In this document: positions 3,369-35,527 of the stretch, piece after piece
Layout: each line of letters begins with the position of its first letter
How positions within the stretch are numbered: the first letter of the stretch is position 1
Origin: a virus
Direction: 5' to 3' (one strand)
Virus record (IMG/VR): IMGVR_UViG_3300030389_000988
Coordinates: 1 to 35,649 of that record
DNA: 35,649 nucleotides
Notes under the pieces: model-generated
The model's input: the letters and a program-made list of their open reading frames with translations, nothing else
What the model was told of the DNA's origin: nothing
Databases searched by the model: none
Translations under genes and position numbers: made by a program

Positions 3369-6300
3369 TGCCAGAATTTCATAGAGATAATCCTGCGCAG
3401 GAACAAGAATTTTACAAAGAACTACAACGTAGAGAAGCAACCTATAAACGTGCTAAACAATCTATAAATAAAGAAGACGCTATGCGTGCAAGTTCTATAG
3501 CAAAAGCATATCCAAACTTTTCACCAGATGTTATTACTGCACTTACTACATTACAAGTAAAACCAGAAGCTACAGTTTTACAAGATATTTCTAAAATGAT
3601 TGCACAATCTAATAGTAAAACTATTTTAGATAGAGTGTTTGATCCTATACAAGCAGGTGTACGTTTAGGATTTTTAGGTCTAGAAGATTTATATAGAACA
3701 ACTGTAGACAGACCTATCAACTCTTTTATTGCTGCTACATTTGGAGACAAAGCAGAAAATTTAACATTTAGAGAAGCATACAAGCAATCTGGTAAGTCAA
3801 CTGTAAAACAATTGTTACGACAATTAGATAAAGGACAAAAGGTAAATTTAGGAGAAGGATTTTTACCACAATCAGAAGTTTTTGATCCAGAAAATCCACA
3901 ATCAAAATTTTATGACGAATATCAATACATGATTCGTTCTGGTTTTGACAGTGGTAGAGCGCAACAAATTATACAAAATTATCTAGGTACACCTATAACT
4001 GACATAGATAGAAGAATGCAAGAAGGTAATGAGAACTTTACAATTACAAGTCAATACGGTACTGCACCTATATCTTTAGGTAGATCAATAGCTTTACAAG
4101 TTGCAGAACCAAACACAAGACCATTTAATGTTATATCTGGTGTATTAGACGCAGGTAAAGCATTATTTTTAGATCCTGCAAATTACATGGCATTAGGTTT
4201 AGGTGCGTTTTCTAAAAAAAGAAAATTACTTAAAATACCTGATTATTTAGAAAAACAATTAGATGACATAGAATTAGATAAATTAACAAAAGCACAAAAA
4301 GAATACATTGGTGCTGTTAATAGAGGTTGGGGTTTACCTTTTATATCTGGTAGATCAGTATCTAATTACTTAGCAAAAGATCCTGGTGGTAACAAACTTA
4401 TAGATTATTTTAGTGAGTTAGATAGTCCTAATAAATTTATAGAACTTACAGGTATTACAGATAGAGAAGCTATTGCTAGTTTTTTAGACATCTCACAAGA
4501 TTTAACAAAGTCAAGTGCAGAGAAAAAAGAACTTATGTCAAAACTTATTACAGAGTTTTTAGAAGATCCTTTTGGTCCTTTTGGCACAGGACAAGCACCA
4601 ACTGTAGGTGCTATAGGTAGATTTTTAGGTGGTGCTACAGAAGAACTATTAGGCGGTGTACCTAAAGGTACAGGTAAATTATTTGGTGCAAAAAAAGTTA
4701 TAAAGACAAAACTTATGGATAGTCCTAACAGATCAGCAAGAATATTATCTACATACGCAGGTGAGTTTCCATATAGGTATGTTGACAGTAATCAATTAGA
4801 TGACGCAGTAACAAACATAAAAGGTTGGTTAGATCAAACTACTGTAGATCCTATAGCAAAAGATCAGATTATAAACAGAGCTGTACGATTAGAAGATGGT
4901 GATCAAACAGGATTATTTAATGTTGTAAAAGATATGGTTACTTTTGCTACAGATGATTTAGTAGAAAAATATGGCGTTAATAAAGAAGACGCATATACAT
5001 TTAGTAGAATATTTGAAGATTACTTACCAGAATTACGTGCATATTTTATTGACGCAGTTACAGGTAACAATGTTGCAAATCCAGGTGCAAAATTAAGTCA
5101 AACAATTGTAGACAACAAAGCGTTTGTAAATCCAGATCCACACTTACTTACAGAGTTTATAAACAGAACTATACCTTTACCTGATCCTGGACAATTAGCA
5201 AAAGCTATGAACTCAATGTCATTAATAAGAGCTAAAGCGTCAGAAGCAGGTATTGACATGTTTAGTAAGTTACCTGCAAATATTAGACAAGGTACTTTAT
5301 CTAAAATTATTGATAGTTATTATTCAGACTTTTGGAAACCATTTGTATTGTTACGTGGTGCCTGGTTACTACGTGTTGTAGGAGAAGAGCAGCTACGTAT
5401 GTATACAAAAGGTTATGACAATATTTTTTCACGACCATTATCAGTATTGTCTTTAGGTTTACTAAAAAAACCTAGTACATCAGAAGCTGCAAGATGGACA
5501 AGTAAAAATGTTAAATTTACAGATTTACTAGGCAATCCATTAGATGACGCATTGGAATGGCAACAAGCTAGTTCACGTAGATATGGTTCTGCTAATTTTG
5601 ATCATTTATTTGGCGGTGCATACAAAGCAGGTAGAAGAAGAAAAAAACCAGGTGTACACCCAATGGACGTTGTAAGTAAAGAAGACGCTTTACGTAATAT
5701 AGAAACACAACCAAACCTTATGAAAAAATATTTTGATGACGGTATTGTAAGAGAGATAGCGCATTTACATTATGATAGATTGTTTAACTTTTTATATCGA
5801 GGTGCTAATACAAAAAAACAAAGAGACGCAAGGTTTAAAGAATTTATAGAAGGATCTAGTAGTCGTGCGCAAGATGTTATAGAAGCATATAGTAAAGGTG
5901 GACCAGAATATAGAGCAAGAATGAGTACAGCAGGTGGTAGATTTGCTTACGCAGAATCTATTACAGCTAGAGTAAACCAATTAGCAGGTGGTTCTTTTGA
6001 TCAAAATTTAGATGTTTTAGAAGATTTAAGCAAAAGAATAAACATAGATGATTTAGATTTTGCTAATACACCATTTCCATTGTCAGTAGAAAAAGTAGCA
6101 AACAATAACATACTAGAAATGTTGTTAAGAAATAGATTAAACAGAATAGACGGTACAAAATATATTGATGAAACATTAGATGATTTTTTTGACAGCATAA
6201 AAGATGGCGATCAAACATTATATAAAAAAGTTAAAAAAACATTATTGTCTGATGACTATATAGAAGATCTACCAAACATAGTTGCAGTAGGCAAAACAGA

Positions 6301-8752
6301 TTATATAGATAGTGCAGGTAAATTAGAGTTTTATACAAACAAAGCATTTGACGCATTAATGGGACAAAGAACAGATAATGCTTCACGATCACCTGTATTT
6401 AGACAAGCATACTGGAGAACTATATATGACATGCTTCCATACATGTCAGGCAAGATGAGACAAACTATGTTAGAAGGTGGATCATATACAGTTGATGGTA
6501 AAGAATTTAATGTAGTAGGTGCATTAAATGCAAATTTACCAGGAGAAAATATGTTAGCAAGTTTTAAAGCAGACATAGGTTTACCTGCAAGTAAATTACG
6601 TAAAACAGACACAGATATAAATATTGACATGTTTCAACGTAAAGTTAAAGAATTAAATGACAGAGATACAAAATTAGATTTAGGTTTTGAAGATCTTGAT
6701 GAAGAGTTTGAGAATCTATCTACTGCACTTAATAATAAACGATCAAGATTACAAAAACAGATAGATGATAAACAAGAAGAGCTTTACAAATTAGAGAGAG
6801 ATATTTTTGGTACATACGGATCAGGAGTAACTTATGAAGATGACATAGTGCCACAAAATATAAAACAACGTGTTGACGATATAGAAGAACGCATATTTGA
6901 ATTAGAGAGTGAGATAGAAGATGTACAAGATGTATTTAATAACAACTTAGCAGAAAAAGCAGAACTACTAGGATTTACAGATAAATCAGGTGACGTTGAT
7001 TTAATTGATAGAATAGCAAAAGCAAGGGCTTTAACAGAAGTTCAAGAACTATTATATGACTTAACTAAACGTAAAAAACTAGCATATAACTTGCGTGGTA
7101 TATTTCCATTCGGTGAAGCATACATAGAAATCATGACTACATGGGCAAGGTTGTTAAAAGAAAATCCAGAAATATTACGTAGAGGACAAGTAACTGTTAA
7201 CGCTGCACGTGCAAGTAATCCATTTAGTCCTGTAGAAGGAGAAGGATTTTTAGGAGAAGATGAAGTAACTGGTGAAGAAGTATTTTATTATCCTATGATT
7301 GATGACTTTGTATCTGATAGATTATTTGGCGAAGATAGAAATGTTGGTGTCAGATTACCTGGATATGCAGGATCATTAAACCTAGCGTTAGAAATTGTGC
7401 CTGGTATAGGTCCTGCAGTAGCTATACCTGCAAGTTTTTTTGTAAATGCTAGTCCAACATTTGACGAAGCTAAAAAAGTTTTATTTCCATACGGATTACC
7501 AGATGTTAGATCTGCAGGAGATTTAATTGCTGCAGCAGGTGTACCTGCATGGTTACGTAATACATATCAAGCATTGTACGCATATAACGAAGATGTAGGT
7601 CAAAATGAGATAACACGTATTGCAAGTAACACAACTATTGACGTATACAGAATACTAAAAGCTGATGGTAGAGATGATAGAACTGCAGACATGCAAGATG
7701 AGTTAATGAAGGAAGCAAGACAGATTGCAAAAGGATTGACTCTTATAAAAGCCATATCACAATTTGTTGGTCCTACAGGTCTTAATCCGCGTTTTGATAT
7801 AGGTAACGAAAAAAATGCAGGTCATATCTACAGTATGCAAATATTATCTGACAGGTATAGAGAGTTATTAGAAACACCACCTAAAGATCCAATAACTGGT
7901 AGATTTTTATACGCACCTGGAGATAACTATTCTGCTACTAAATTTTTTATAGATGAGTTTGGTTTTAATCCTATTGACATTGCAACACCAAAAACAGTTG
8001 TTATAGAGCCAAGACCAGTAGATGAACGCGGTGTAAAGTTTCAAAGAGAAAATCCAGAGATATTTAAACAATATAGTTTTACAGCACAATATGCAATACC
8101 ACAAGGCGGTGGTGGTCCATTTGATTATGAAGCATACGTAAGAACTATTGCTAACGAACAAAGAGAACCATTAAAACCAGAAGAATGGTTAGCAAAACGT
8201 AACCAAAGATTAGGTCAATTTTATATGGAAGAAAAACGTATATCTACATTACAAACATACGATATAACTGATCCGTATCAAAACCTAATGCGTAATAGAG
8301 AATTAGCATTTAACAGAGATCTTGCTAGACAAAAATTTCCTGGATTTGATTCTACCGTACCTGGTCTACCACAAACATCAACATTAGAAATGCAATACGA
8401 AGAACTTAAACAATGGAAAAATAGTGACAAACTATCGTCTACGCCAGTAGGTAAAGATTTACTTGTGGTATTTGGATTAATAAATACATTGGAAAAACGA
8501 TCATTAAAAGCAGGTTTGTCTAAAAATGGTTGGCGTACATCACGTACACTATTACGTGAGAGACAACAGCTACGTGATTTAATAGGCACATTAATAAATA
8601 AAAATCCAGATTTCCAAGTTGTTGCTGAACGTGTATTGTTACCGTTGTTCCAGGAACGTACAGATTTCTTAGAAGATCTGCAATATGACTATGATACACT
8701 TAAAGAATACGGTGTATACTTACCACAGTTACCTGATACAGAGGATATTTAA
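3368..8752 (+). CDS. Giant putative internal virion protein (1794 aa)
   Basis: This is the largest protein in the window and I cannot assign a family. It is mostly helical in character. Readable landmarks are a middle segment with FVLLRGAWLLRVVGEEQLR, a charged heptad-like coiled coil around residues 1090-1195 (LQKQIDDKQEELYKLERDI), and a later hydrophobic part with IFPFGEAYIEIMTTWARLL and ALEIVPGIGPAVAIPASFF that could insert in or cross a membrane. Length, position beside the portal and a lytic-transglycosylase gene in the same operon suggest a protein packaged in the head and ejected with the DNA, like the large internal proteins of podoviruses. A tape measure role is less likely because no tube or tail-assembly genes flank it. 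It joins the neighbouring genes through TAATG overlaps. Confidence 0.75.
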   Translation: MPEFHRDNPAQEQEFYKELQRREATYKRAKQSINKEDAMRASSIAKAYPNFSPDVITALTTLQVKPEATVLQDISKMIAQSNSKTILDRVFDPIQAGVRLGFLGLEDLYRTTVDRPINSFIAATFGDKAENLTFREAYKQSGKSTVKQLLRQLDKGQKVNLGEGFLPQSEVFDPENPQSKFYDEYQYMIRSGFDSGRAQQIIQNYLGTPITDIDRRMQEGNENFTITSQYGTAPISLGRSIALQVAEPNTRPFNVISGVLDAGKALFLDPANYMALGLGAFSKKRKLLKIPDYLEKQLDDIELDKLTKAQKEYIGAVNRGWGLPFISGRSVSNYLAKDPGGNKLIDYFSELDSPNKFIELTGITDREAIASFLDISQDLTKSSAEKKELMSKLITEFLEDPFGPFGTGQAPTVGAIGRFLGGATEELLGGVPKGTGKLFGAKKVIKTKLMDSPNRSARILSTYAGEFPYRYVDSNQLDDAVTNIKGWLDQTTVDPIAKDQIINRAVRLEDGDQTGLFNVVKDMVTFATDDLVEKYGVNKEDAYTFSRIFEDYLPELRAYFIDAVTGNNVANPGAKLSQTIVDNKAFVNPDPHLLTEFINRTIPLPDPGQLAKAMNSMSLIRAKASEAGIDMFSKLPANIRQGTLSKIIDSYYSDFWKPFVLLRGAWLLRVVGEEQLRMYTKGYDNIFSRPLSVLSLGLLKKPSTSEAARWTSKNVKFTDLLGNPLDDALEWQQASSRRYGSANFDHLFGGAYKAGRRRKKPGVHPMDVVSKEDALRNIETQPNLMKKYFDDGIVREIAHLHYDRLFNFLYRGANTKKQRDARFKEFIEGSSSRAQDVIEAYSKGGPEYRARMSTAGGRFAYAESITARVNQLAGGSFDQNLDVLEDLSKRINIDDLDFANTPFPLSVEKVANNNILEMLLRNRLNRIDGTKYIDETLDDFFDSIKDGDQTLYKKVKKTLLSDDYIEDLPNIVAVGKTDYIDSAGKLEFYTNKAFDALMGQRTDNASRSPVFRQAYWRTIYDMLPYMSGKMRQTMLEGGSYTVDGKEFNVVGALNANLPGENMLASFKADIGLPASKLRKTDTDINIDMFQRKVKELNDRDTKLDLGFEDLDEEFENLSTALNNKRSRLQKQIDDKQEELYKLERDIFGTYGSGVTYEDDIVPQNIKQRVDDIEERIFELESEIEDVQDVFNNNLAEKAELLGFTDKSGDVDLIDRIAKARALTEVQELLYDLTKRKKLAYNLRGIFPFGEAYIEIMTTWARLLKENPEILRRGQVTVNAARASNPFSPVEGEGFLGEDEVTGEEVFYYPMIDDFVSDRLFGEDRNVGVRLPGYAGSLNLALEIVPGIGPAVAIPASFFVNASPTFDEAKKVLFPYGLPDVRSAGDLIAAAGVPAWLRNTYQALYAYNEDVGQNEITRIASNTTIDVYRILKADGRDDRTADMQDELMKEARQIAKGLTLIKAISQFVGPTGLNPRFDIGNEKNAGHIYSMQILSDRYRELLETPPKDPITGRFLYAPGDNYSATKFFIDEFGFNPIDIATPKTVVIEPRPVDERGVKFQRENPEIFKQYSFTAQYAIPQGGGGPFDYEAYVRTIANEQREPLKPEEWLAKRNQRLGQFYMEEKRISTLQTYDITDPYQNLMRNRELAFNRDLARQKFPGFDSTVPGLPQTSTLEMQYEELKQWKNSDKLSSTPVGKDLLVVFGLINTLEKRSLKAGLSKNGWRTSRTLLRERQQLRDLIGTLINKNPDFQVVAERVLLPLFQERTDFLEDLQYDYDTLKEYGVYLPQLPDTEDI

Positions 8753-32183: not shown

Positions 32184-32375
32184 ATGAGTGATGAACTCAA
32201 AGCACTTATCGAAAAAGTTGTTTGGACATTCATTGAAGCATTTGGTTCTGCTTTACTGGTAGGTCCTGCGCTTGACTTAGATATTACAGCAATACAAGCT
32301 GCAGCAATTGCAGGTGGTGGATCAGTAATAGTTGTATTAAAAGAGTATGCAAAAAAACAACTCGCAGGTAAGTAA
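32184..32375 (+). CDS. Holin (r1t-like, two membrane helices)
   Basis: A 63-residue protein with membrane segments at about 12-27 (VVWTFIEAFGSALLVG) and 35-52 (IQAAAIAGGGSVIVVLKEY) and a basic C-terminus (AKKQLAGK). The order of an aromatic first helix, an acidic loop with D-I-T, an Ala/Gly-rich second helix and a V-L-K-x-Y-A-K end resembles r1t-type holins of phages infecting actinobacteria and Gram-positive hosts. ACTGGAGATAAC supplies GGAG at about six bases from the ATG. Follows the DUF5675-like gene, forming a lysis pair. It overlaps the metallophosphoesterase start by 29 bases. Confidence 0.7.
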   Translation: MSDELKALIEKVVWTFIEAFGSALLVGPALDLDITAIQAAAIAGGGSVIVVLKEYAKKQLAGK

Positions 32376-33567
32376 ACTTACTACAACCCAACAGGACGTA
32401 GCACACAACGAAACAAAAGATACACCTAACCACCCAAATGGTTGGGAACCTGGAGTAGAGTTTAACTATAAAACCAAGACTGGGACAATAACAACAAGAG
32501 CTATGGACAATGCTAGTCCACAGTTTGATGACTTGCTTAGATCATGGGGATTCGATCCTGAAAAATATTATATTCTAAATGACACAATACGTGTAAGCAC
32601 GTGGGATATGAATTTGGGAAAAGGAGACGTGCAACAAGCATGGGCATACAAAGCACAAATAATTTACAGAGAACATGCACTTGATCAAGATGATTATGAT
32701 CGTATATCTAAATGGATACAAACATACAAGCGTAAAGCTAAACCTAAAATAACAAAACCTAAAGCTAGTTTCTTTGTTGCTATATCTGATTTGCAATTAG
32801 GCAAGCGTGATGGCGGTGGTACAGAAGCTATTGTCAATAGATTTTTAGACAAGATAGATACAGTACGTGATCGTTATAACTTCTTACGTAAAGCAGGAGT
32901 GCAGCTAGATCAGTTAACAGTCGTGGGATTAGGTGATATCGTAGAAGGGTGTGTTGGCTTCTATCCACAAGCGATGGGACCTAACGGAGTCGAGTTGGAT
33001 TATCGTAATCAAATGAAACTTGCTAGAAGAATAATAGCTAAAGCATTAGTAGAGTGGTCAAAAGATTTTGATCTAGTTGTTGTCGGCGCAGTACCAGGAA
33101 ATCATGGAACTAAAAGGATTGCAAAAGGTATAGCACCTACAGGTGAGATGGATAACTATGACATAGAAGTGTTCGAGCAAATAGCAGAAATCTTTGCAGA
33201 CAAACCACAATACAAACATGTTAAGTTTGTTATACCAGATGAGCCACACTTATCACTAAACGTATGCGGAACAAACATGAGTTTTACGCATGGTCATTTA
33301 AGCACTGGATCTGGCAACATAGAGCATAAAATTATGAACTGGTGGAAGAATCAGACGTTTGGTGGTTTTCATTCAGGTGGATCAAGCATTCTTGTTACAG
33401 GTCATTACCATCATCATCGTGAAATAAATGATCCTAGAACCTGGATACAAGTACCTAGTCTTGATGAGTCTACATACTTTGAACACCAGGCAGGCAAGAA
33501 AACTAAACAAGGTGTAATGACTATGGTTGTTGATAAGAATGGACACAACAACAAAGAGATCGTATAA
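32347..33567 (+). CDS. Calcineurin-like metallophosphoesterase
   Basis: A probable metal-dependent phosphoesterase acting on nucleic acid or nucleotides. Motifs in order: SDLQLGKRDGGG with D148, GLGDIVEG with D197, PGNHGT with N252 and H253, FTHGH near residue 314, and GHYHHH with H353. The first motif has Gln where classical DxH enzymes have His, as is usual in the phage SDxQLGK subgroup often found in actinobacteriophages. The N-terminal 140 residues are a separate helper region with a Trp-rich core. The ATG lies inside the holin gene in another frame; no alternative start follows within 100 bases. Terminator-like hairpins follow. DNA-processing rather than signalling is likely, but the substrate is unknown. 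Confidence 0.8.
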   Translation: MQKNNSQVSKLTTTQQDVAHNETKDTPNHPNGWEPGVEFNYKTKTGTITTRAMDNASPQFDDLLRSWGFDPEKYYILNDTIRVSTWDMNLGKGDVQQAWAYKAQIIYREHALDQDDYDRISKWIQTYKRKAKPKITKPKASFFVAISDLQLGKRDGGGTEAIVNRFLDKIDTVRDRYNFLRKAGVQLDQLTVVGLGDIVEGCVGFYPQAMGPNGVELDYRNQMKLARRIIAKALVEWSKDFDLVVVGAVPGNHGTKRIAKGIAPTGEMDNYDIEVFEQIAEIFADKPQYKHVKFVIPDEPHLSLNVCGTNMSFTHGHLSTGSGNIEHKIMNWWKNQTFGGFHSGGSSILVTGHYHHHREINDPRTWIQVPSLDESTYFEHQAGKKTKQGVMTMVVDKNGHNNKEIV

Positions 33568-33569
33568 AA

Positions 33570-33611
33570 AAGTAAGCCAGATGTGGTCATAACGCACACC
33601 TGACTTAGCTT
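33570..33611 (+). terminator. Imperfect stem-loop after the metallophosphoesterase gene
   Basis: Bases 33570-33585 pair with 33595-33611 (TGTG/CACA, CAG/CTG, TAAG/CTTA, AAG/CTT) with two mismatches and one bulge, preceded by an A run and followed by TTACT. It starts three bases after the stop codon, so a terminator or transcript-end structure is likely; the T tract is weak. Confidence 0.45.
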
Positions 33612-33689
33612 TACTCTAATAGAATATGGCGTATTTAATTAGATAAAATACATAATAAACATCTTTTAGATCTTGTCAAGTATAAAAGC

Positions 33690-33713
33690 AAAGCGGACTC
33701 ACAGGTCCGCTTT
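33690..33713 (+). terminator. GC-rich hairpin, terminator-like
   Basis: AAAGCGGAC at 33690-33698 pairs perfectly with GTCCGCTTT at 33705-33713 around a six-base loop; ATTGCTT follows. The A-rich left flank and T-ended right arm allow termination from either side. With no gene between it and the previous stem-loop it probably backs up termination of the late transcript. Confidence 0.6.
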
Positions 33714-33778
33714 ATTGCTTATGGAAGGAGTTGTCTTGCGTTATGACACGTAAGATACTCATTGCATACACTACTGCA

Positions 33779-33787
33779 TGCTATAAT
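33779..33787 (+). promoter_or_regulatory. Extended -10 promoter candidate for a small RNA
   Basis: TGC followed by a perfect TATAAT. TTGCAT at 33762-33767 is a poor -35 candidate because the spacer is only 14 bases. A transcript starting near 33794 would end at the terminator at 33874, giving about 80 nt. Confidence 0.48.
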
Positions 33788-33790
33788 TAT

Positions 33791-33874
33791 TGTCAAGTCA
33801 CTTCATTGATCAGGGGTTTCCTCCTTTACCTTGATCCTTGACACCAGGTCATATTACTTCGATCTGGTGTTTTT
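33791..33874 (+). ncRNA. Candidate small RNA presenting an anti-Shine-Dalgarno loop
   Basis: Between the TATAAT at 33782 and the terminator lie nested complementary arms. TGTCAAG 33791-33797 pairs with CTTGACA 33837-33843. Inside it GATCAGG 33808-33814 pairs with CCTTGATC 33829-33836 (one bulged T), leaving a 14-base loop that contains CCTCCTTT at 33820-33827. The start point may trim the first bases of the outer arm. The outer arm shares three bases with the terminator stem. The loop could pair with AGGAGG-type ribosome binding sites. A 32-codon ORF (33743-33841) overlaps the same region, so an attenuator leader is an alternative. Confidence 0.45.
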
Positions 33875-33875
33875 A
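33841..33875 (+). terminator. Intrinsic terminator
   Basis: ACACCAGGTC 33841-33850 pairs with GATCTGGTGT 33861-33870 (ten pairs, one G-U) around a ten-base loop and is followed by a T tract reaching 33874. This is the clearest rho-independent terminator in the window. Confidence 0.8.
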
Positions 33876-33884
33876 GCAAAAATC

Positions 33885-33913
33885 TTTACGATTTTGAATT
33901 TATGCTATATAAT
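33885..33913 (+). promoter_or_regulatory. Promoter for the right-hand gene module
   Basis: TTTACG at 33885-33890, a 17-base spacer and TATAAT at 33908-33913; TGC at 33903-33905 also sets up an extended -10 for an overlapping TATATA. It lies just after the intrinsic terminator and before GGGAGG and the ATG at 33931, so it is well placed to start an independent operon. Confidence 0.58.
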
Positions 33914-33930
33914 TATATTGGGAGGTAGTA

Positions 33931-34167
33931 ATGACTGCAATTAATACTACGTTTGACGATAACAAAATGTTATCCTCACTTGCTGAATCAGTAGGTAATA
34001 CTGGTGTCGGCTTTGTTGTTATATATAAAAACAATCCTAAATATATAGACAGCATAAGTGAATTAAGAAACTGGTTGCGTAAAAACGGTCTGTACATACA
34101 TGAGTATCAAATGTCTAATGGCATATTACACTACGTATTTGTAAGATCAGAACGCGGCGGCGATTAG
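33931..34167 (+). CDS. Small protein, first gene of the right-hand module (78 aa)
   Basis: A 78-residue protein with a plausible mixed alpha/beta order: MTAINTTFDDNKMLSSLAES, GVGFVVIYKNNPKYIDSIS, LRNWLRKNGLYIHEYQMSN and a final strand YVFVRSERGGD. No family is recognised. The start is strongly supported by GGGAGG at 33920-33925 and by the promoter directly upstream. As the first gene after a promoter it may be expressed early and could act on host functions, which is inference only. Confidence 0.7.
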   Translation: MTAINTTFDDNKMLSSLAESVGNTGVGFVVIYKNNPKYIDSISELRNWLRKNGLYIHEYQMSNGILHYVFVRSERGGD

Positions 34168-34519: not shown

Positions 34520-34751
34520 TCCACAAGATCGTGACATAAAAGTAATGTTTACTGATCACAGTACACGTGATTACATTATGACTGCAAGTAATATAAAAGA
34601 AGCAGAAGAAAAGTTTGACGCAATATTTAATGAGGTTGAGAAAAAAATTAATGAGTTGTGTAAAGCAAATAATGTTGGTAAAGTTACTAAAGTCTGGTGT
34701 GAATATCACATAGATAAATATCATTACATGACAGAGGAGGAGGATACATAA
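34506..34751 (+). CDS. Small protein of unknown function (81 aa)
   Basis: An 81-residue protein with alternating strands and helices: DIKVMFTDHSTRDYIMTAS, IKEAEEKFDAIFNEVEKKI and VTKVWCEYHIDKYHYMTEE. The central helix carries heptad-like Glu/Lys pairs. The start overlaps the acidic micro-ORF and the stop overlaps the ATG of the annealing protein (TAATG), with GAGGAGGA just before. No family recognised; co-expression with a recombination protein is the main clue. Confidence 0.66.
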   Translation: MSAPSPQDRDIKVMFTDHSTRDYIMTASNIKEAEEKFDAIFNEVEKKINELCKANNVGKVTKVWCEYHIDKYHYMTEEEDT

Positions 34752-35527
34752 TGGCATGGCAAGACGAGTACGATCAAGTAGAAGATAGACTTAAAAAATT
34801 TTGGAAGGACAATCCTAACGGTCGTATAGACACAAAAGTTATACATGTTAATGCAGATTTTACAAATGCAATACATAGGTGTGAAGTTTACAAAGATATT
34901 AATGATGAGTTTCCTGTAGCAACAGGCATAGCACAAGATCAACAAGGACCAAAAGGTGCAAACCAAACCTCATGGATAGAAAATGGGGAGACGAGTTCAG
35001 TAGGCAGAGCTTTGGCGAACTGGAAGTACGCAGCAAAGAAGCGACCATCGGTCACAGAAATGCAGAAGGTGGAGAACTTGAAGGATACCCAAGTTACCAA
35101 GAGTGCAGCACAAACTAGCAATAGCAAAGGTTACACTCCTCCACCATCTGTACAAAAAAAACTTGATGGTGCAGTACAAGACAGTGATCTTGCAGGTAAA
35201 TCAATAGAAGATAAATTAGAAACTATTGGTGTATCAGTAGAAGAGAAGGTTGTAATTACAAAAGGCACAGTCCAACCAAAGTGTATAAGTTGCGACAGTG
35301 AGTTGTGGGACAACAGAATGGATAAAGCAACTGGTAAAATAGGACAAGGTTATCCAGATTGGAAATGTAAAAACAGAGAGTGTAAAGCAGGTAAGAATGG
35401 CACACCACGTGCGTACTATATGGACAGCTACAGTGCTGAACAAAAAGCACCAGAAGAGTGGTACATGCCAGAGGTAGTAAAAGCAAAAGATGTAAAAGAA
35501 ATAAAAGAAGGGGAAGTGCCGTTCTAA
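34751..35527 (+). CDS. Single-strand annealing-type recombination protein with zinc ribbon
   Basis: A 258-residue protein in which residues about 10-95 (IDTKVIHVNADFTNAIHRCE, then VATGIAQDQQGPKGANQTSW and ENGETSSVGRALANWKYA) read like ERF/Rad52-type single-strand annealing proteins; ETSSVGRALA is the characteristic stretch. A Pro/Ser linker leads to a zinc ribbon with C178-C181 and C206-C211 (CISC ... CKNREC). The last residues, EGEVPF, resemble the acidic Pro-Phe tip of SSB proteins that recruits repair partners. A strong GAGGAGG precedes the ATG. It probably anneals or protects single-stranded DNA in phage recombination and replication. The ERF-like call is moderate. Confidence 0.66.
   Translation: MAWQDEYDQVEDRLKKFWKDNPNGRIDTKVIHVNADFTNAIHRCEVYKDINDEFPVATGIAQDQQGPKGANQTSWIENGETSSVGRALANWKYAAKKRPSVTEMQKVENLKDTQVTKSAAQTSNSKGYTPPPSVQKKLDGAVQDSDLAGKSIEDKLETIGVSVEEKVVITKGTVQPKCISCDSELWDNRMDKATGKIGQGYPDWKCKNRECKAGKNGTPRAYYMDSYSAEQKAPEEWYMPEVVKAKDVKEIKEGEVPF

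Follow-up and report, generated by a model that had tools for sequence, protein, structure and literature searches.

A predicted small-RNA gene with an invariant anti-Shine-Dalgarno loop in uncultured, probably marine phages

Described anti-Shine-Dalgarno RNAs and the phage locus

Hairpin RNAs with an anti-Shine-Dalgarno (anti-SD) motif are already known in bacteria. The alpha-r14/NfeR1/cuckoo RNAs of alphaproteobacteria combine variable stems with an ultraconserved anti-SD in the unpaired part (PMC10746234), and the 6C/B11 RNAs of actinobacteria, among them mycobacteria, pair their unpaired C-rich loops with ribosome-binding sites (RBS) and repress (PMC10470900). In phages P1 and P7, the c4 RNA pairs near an RBS and blocks translation, as described in a review (PMC12197685) whose passages on the subject mention no anti-SD phage RNA.

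We analysed a whole IMG/VR virus record of 35,649 nucleotides (35.6 kb, GC 35%), here referred to as the window, in which terminase, portal, major head protein and exonuclease were recognisable. Between the exonuclease gene (32,347–33,567, plus strand; phrog_284, E 3.6e-52) and a gene for a 78-aa protein with no assigned function (33,931–34,167, plus strand) lies an interval that, as judged from sequence comparison, is a real small-RNA gene of the phage, about 80 nt long and with an anti-SD loop, and that represents a new family within a functional class already known. The best matches of the head protein and the exonuclease were phages of actinobacteria, at about 30% identity; thus the host is likely actinobacterial, and probably marine. 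The annotated phages that we searched gave no DNA match and only distant protein matches, and the small RNA family belongs to uncultured, probably marine phages.

Like alpha-r14 and the cuckoo RNAs, the phage RNA has a hairpin whose stem varies around a constant unpaired anti-SD; however, their motif is CCUCCUCCC, present in three hairpins, whereas the phage RNA carries GUUUCCUCCUUUA in one. Neither CCUCCUCCC loops nor three hairpins were found, and an Rfam search of 33,560–33,960 with E values up to 5, which is informative only for families with an Rfam model, returned zero matches. With 6C/B11 it shares an unpaired C-rich loop suited to pairing with an RBS, and the relatives of the phage infect actinobacteria; on the other hand, 6C/B11 has two loops made of cytosine strings, while the phage loop has CCUCC and no C string, and the same Rfam search (E ≤ 5) gave no match to this family. 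The likeness to c4 is that of a phage RNA pairing near an RBS, but c4 has one specific target. By this comparison, the phage RNA would probably work in a mode like that of alpha-r14 (cuckoo) or 6C/B11 and is detectably a member of neither.

The stretch CCUCCUUU is identical to the 3′ tail of 16S rRNA, the anti-SD itself. The phage copy differs in that it sits in a closed hairpin loop and in its upstream context. The sequence-only reading of this DNA had extended the likeness to a preceding GATCA, which is indeed found in the window, but relatives read GGTCA, ACATG, AAGTA and others at this place; GAUCA is not conserved and was rejected as part of a 16S mimic.

Structure and conservation of the small-RNA gene

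The predicted RNA starts at about 33,793–33,795 and ends in a T tract (33,793–33,875, plus strand), as suggested by the conserved promoter and terminator and by the folds of all representatives. Its putative promoter is an extended -10, TGC-TATAAT (33,779–33,787, plus strand), without a -35 on this strand, and a column count found TG and TATAAT near-invariant among distinct relatives. Downstream lies the anti-SD hairpin (33,808–33,836, plus strand), in which the arms GATCAGGG (33,808–33,815) and CCTTGATC (33,829–33,836) form an 8-bp stem around the loop GUUUCCUCCUUUA (33,816–33,828, plus strand); the loop reads GTTTCCTCCTTTA, includes CCTCCTTT at 33,820–33,827 and is the reverse complement of UAAAGGAGGAAAC. 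It is followed by an intrinsic terminator (33,841–33,874, plus strand) of ten pairs, 33,841–33,850 with 33,861–33,870, and a T tract to 33,874. This terminator was missing from our pattern scan, which covered loops of up to 8 nt only, because its own loop has 10 nt. The predicted fold of the interval has an energy of -26.8 kcal/mol (z = -3.68), equalled by 1 of 200 dinucleotide shuffles, and the 15-mer GGTTTCCTCCTTTAC occurs a single time in the window. No reading frame is conserved across the relatives of the small RNA, and a peptide-coding interpretation of the interval was rejected on this ground.

Searching IMG/VR with the exonuclease yielded 80 loci; in those inspected loci that had enough sequence, the small RNA element lies 3′ of the exonuclease gene. 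In a test blind to the RNA, a search that started from aligned sequences of the 78-aa protein encoded downstream yielded 78 viral loci, many of them close relatives and many on contigs of the exonuclease search, and the exact 13-mer GUUUCCUCCUUUA was present within 800 bases upstream of the 78-aa gene in all 78. Even the distant L100 branch, whose exonuclease is 36% and whose 78-aa protein is 44% identical to that of the window, has the loop unchanged. In exonuclease relatives of this branch with a different gene neighbourhood, the RNA is mostly missing beside the exonuclease. A covariance model (R1) found one copy per genome in 9/9 long relatives.

Among 14 distinct sequences, 94.6% of the cells of the 8-bp stem are paired and seven of the eight pairs show compensatory changes, with a covariation score of 0.886 vs 0.285 for shuffled and at most 0.21 for slid alignments; RNAalifold and a second alignment concur. 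Since the 78 protein-selected relatives all keep the 13-mer and the stem covaries, the loop is conserved beyond chance. The representatives fold as an anti-SD hairpin followed by a terminator hairpin, the lone exception being one that is cut short, and the loop is unpaired in these folds, as in an unpaired anti-SD under selection. The interval thus shows what is generally looked for in an intergenic phage small RNA, namely its own promoter, a conserved RNA structure and its own terminator, and it inverts as a unit (see below).

The sequence-only reading is borne out in part by these comparisons. The extended -10, the inner stem with its loop and the ten-pair terminator with its T tract are all present in the sequence, the element sits between two gene blocks, and the proposals of a phage small-RNA gene and of an anti-SD loop agree with the covarying structure and with the extreme conservation of the 13-mer. 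Covariation came out in favour of the inner stem, and the homologous intervals retain both stem and loop. Its further proposals, a sequestration of AGGAGG sites and a late/early switch of translation, are hypothetical.

One pattern scan of bacterial genome contigs, with a pattern that extended past the hairpin, gave 13 chance-like matches and no family member, and the loop sequence, sought as text in the literature, was met only in unrelated primer-like sequences. Of the neighbouring genes, the one for the 78-aa protein has its own promoter-like site and the SD GGGAGGT; the protein (33,931–34,167) had no PHROG or Pfam match, contains the features YIDS ... HYVFVRSERGGD, and co-occurs with the small RNA in 78/78 loci. 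Four loci (L012, L015, L016 and L196) have an extra short Cys/His-rich coding stretch (WYCHFCG ... CECRCH) just 3′ of the exonuclease, which is absent from the window.

The opposite strand and look-alikes in unrelated phages

Several features were not part of the sequence-only reading: a promoter on the opposite strand, a possible second anti-SD RNA, inverted copies of the unit and the recurrence of its loop in unrelated phages. The putative opposite-strand promoter (33,768–33,796, minus strand) consists of TTGACA (33,796–33,791), a 17-base spacer and TAGTGT (33,773–33,768), and overlaps the plus-strand promoter. On the minus strand of all 25 representatives, TA---T stands at one offset from the plus-strand -10 with varying middle bases (12 hexamers in total), and TTGACA lies 16–17 bases upstream of it, exact in 17 and in a near form in the rest. 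In a column count of distinct sequences, the positions of this promoter are fixed amid variable neighbours; the sole exception, L094, is a non-family sequence that had passed the filter.

This footprint bears on the nested arms of the sequence-only reading. The inner stem covaries, but the outer arm, TGTCAAG/CTTGACA, is present in letters and does not form in the minimum-energy fold; across relatives 83% of its cells are paired and a single pair is compensatory, and the arm was therefore rejected as a core structure. The TGTCAA of this arm doubles as the -35 of the opposite-strand promoter, which explains its conservation equally well.

The opposite-strand promoter likely drives a predicted second anti-SD RNA (33,684–33,761, minus strand), a candidate with a hairpin, CUCCUUCC and a terminator, an architecture common to most representatives. 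Its putative anti-SD, CUCCUUCC (GGAAGGAG on the plus strand), is placed by sequence comparison at 33,723–33,730 (minus strand), and in the L034/L074 lineage it is replaced by CACCUCC, which corresponds to the same 16S tail in a different register. A bidirectional terminator hairpin, found on both strands (33,690–33,713), lies between the exonuclease and the small RNA unit. Fold energies of the second hairpin favoured the minus strand in 9/28 variants and the plus strand in 19/28.

In at least six unrelated viral loci (the L103 group, L142, L144, L156, L179 and L359), a stem of 7–12 further pairs surrounds the 15-mer. A permutation test counted seven such loci, among them L302, which belongs to the family and had slipped past the filter, against 0.73 expected and a maximum of five in 20,000 permutations. 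Among the matches listed, no 13-mer with other closing bases sat on a stem of at least 6 pairs. The stems of the L103 group and L359 run into a U tract, which gives these hairpins the look of terminators with an anti-SD loop. We suggest, tentatively and from sequence comparison, that the unit comprises two divergent anti-SD RNAs, and that the G-[GUUUCCUCCUUUA]-C hairpin is a recurrent phage device standing in for the 16S tail, which would serve either to act broadly on translation initiation of the host or to divert defence ribonucleases that strip the 16S rRNA of its anti-SD. If this is true, a phage family whose 13-nt loop does not vary, apparently with a divergent partner and with look-alikes in unrelated phages, would point to phage action on translation initiation as such.

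Individual hairpins unrelated to the window were also recorded. Those with a GUUUCCUCCUUUA loop and then a U tract are at L103:51, L165:1344, L360:7621 (contigs up to 190 kb) and L359:7364. Further hairpins that place the anti-SD 15-mer inside the loop or close to it were observed on unrelated viral contigs at L142:4916, L144:1239, L156:1570, L179:8325, L157:1627, L171:270, L108:13694 and L115:2448, some of them within predicted ORFs and others after a gene.

Pairing with ribosome-binding sites and alternative explanations

The loop is the exact complement of the consensus strong RBS UAAAGGAGGAAAC. Its strongest RBS partner in the window, AGAGGAGGAGGATACATAATG (34,735–34,753, plus strand), a putative target, belongs to the gene at 34,751–35,527 and has a pairing energy of -16.2 kcal/mol, the best of all gene starts. 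Loop pairing is somewhat stronger for gene starts up to 8 kb downstream of the RNA than for the others (pooled p = 0.003 over six related, non-independent genomes); the difference is small, and in the window alone p = 0.43. Where else the 15-mer GGTTTCCTCCTTTAC turns up in viral contigs, it frequently lies antisense to an RBS with an ATG behind it.

We regard pairing of the small RNA with strong RBSs, in the anti-SD mode, as the most likely reading and hold it with moderate confidence. RNA polymerase would initiate at the extended -10 and halt at the intrinsic terminator, and the RNA would fold into a hairpin displaying UUUCCUCCUUU, the equivalent of the 16S rRNA 3′ tail, and a terminator hairpin. 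In the cell, the loop would then pair with RBSs of the AGGAGG type in competition with the 30S subunit, so that the small RNA probably blocks ribosome docking sites on mRNAs. Translation of strong-SD mRNAs would fall, the presumed targets being those of the host and/or the phage's own strong early-type genes, with a timing likewise presumed, and the phage may steer translation in this way. Repression of strong-SD messages fits the stronger loop pairing of the downstream gene starts and of the strongest phage RBS. The putative second RNA, transcribed from the overlapping opposite promoter and carrying CUCCUUCC, may act likewise. Against the anti-SD reading speak the conservation of all 13 loop positions, more than SD pairing by itself would call for, and the finding that no single target among those compared is complementary to the entire loop.

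The most interesting rival, though an unlikely one, is a decoy for a protein: the RNA would mimic the 3′ end of 16S rRNA and soak up a protein that acts there, such as an anti-SD-cleaving ribonuclease toxin used against phages. The entire 13-nt loop is invariant, and among the matches listed the unrelated hairpins were all G-C-closed, as a shape-specific partner would need. Some mycobacterial toxins are known to remove the anti-SD from 16S rRNA (PMC12274833, PMC12620021), and the nearest annotated relatives of the phage infect actinobacteria. However, MazF-mt11, an anti-SD-cutting MazF with a stated site, cuts CACCU, which the loop lacks.

Next in likelihood, and unlikely as well, is a trans-acting antisense RNA to one or two mRNAs with an extended loop match instead of a general anti-SD RNA. 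The RBS of the 34,751 orthologue is indeed among the top-ranked loop partners in most relatives and clades; the match, however, is the GAG-GAG core of a strong SD, which also encodes acidic codons of the preceding gene, and its flanks diverge from the loop. No single phage target had an extended match to the whole loop.

A cis-acting element, whether a leader or attenuator for the 78-aa gene or a structure at the 3′ end of the exonuclease mRNA, would agree with the constant position between the two genes, and read-through of the upstream terminator is possible. It is nonetheless very improbable, as the small RNA has its own promoter and terminator, the 78-aa gene its own promoter-like site, and in four loci (L033, L036, L041 and L042) these two genes flank the whole unit in inverted orientation. 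The inverted segment spans the upstream terminator through the small RNA's own terminator, which argues for a separate transcription unit rather than a 5′ leader or 3′ UTR; a leader of the downstream gene is contradicted by these loci and was rejected. Most improbable of all is a DNA-level element or chance, in which case the palindrome would be a terminator or operator and its RNA would have no function. Phages often carry intergenic hairpins, and a bidirectional terminator adjoins, but such an element would conserve the stem sequence instead, and neither a terminator nor a protein site explains why, in 78/78 loci, the loop is invariant while its stem covaries.

The four inverted loci may descend from a single inversion. 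In two of them, the inverted unit (L033 3,490–4,110 and L041 3,240–4,000) is accompanied by extra terminator-like hairpins and repeats before the 78-aa gene. L033 also encodes a SET-domain protein (5,983–6,312; PF00856, E 4e-06) in the block of genes that follows the small RNA, and a similar ORF is present in L168.
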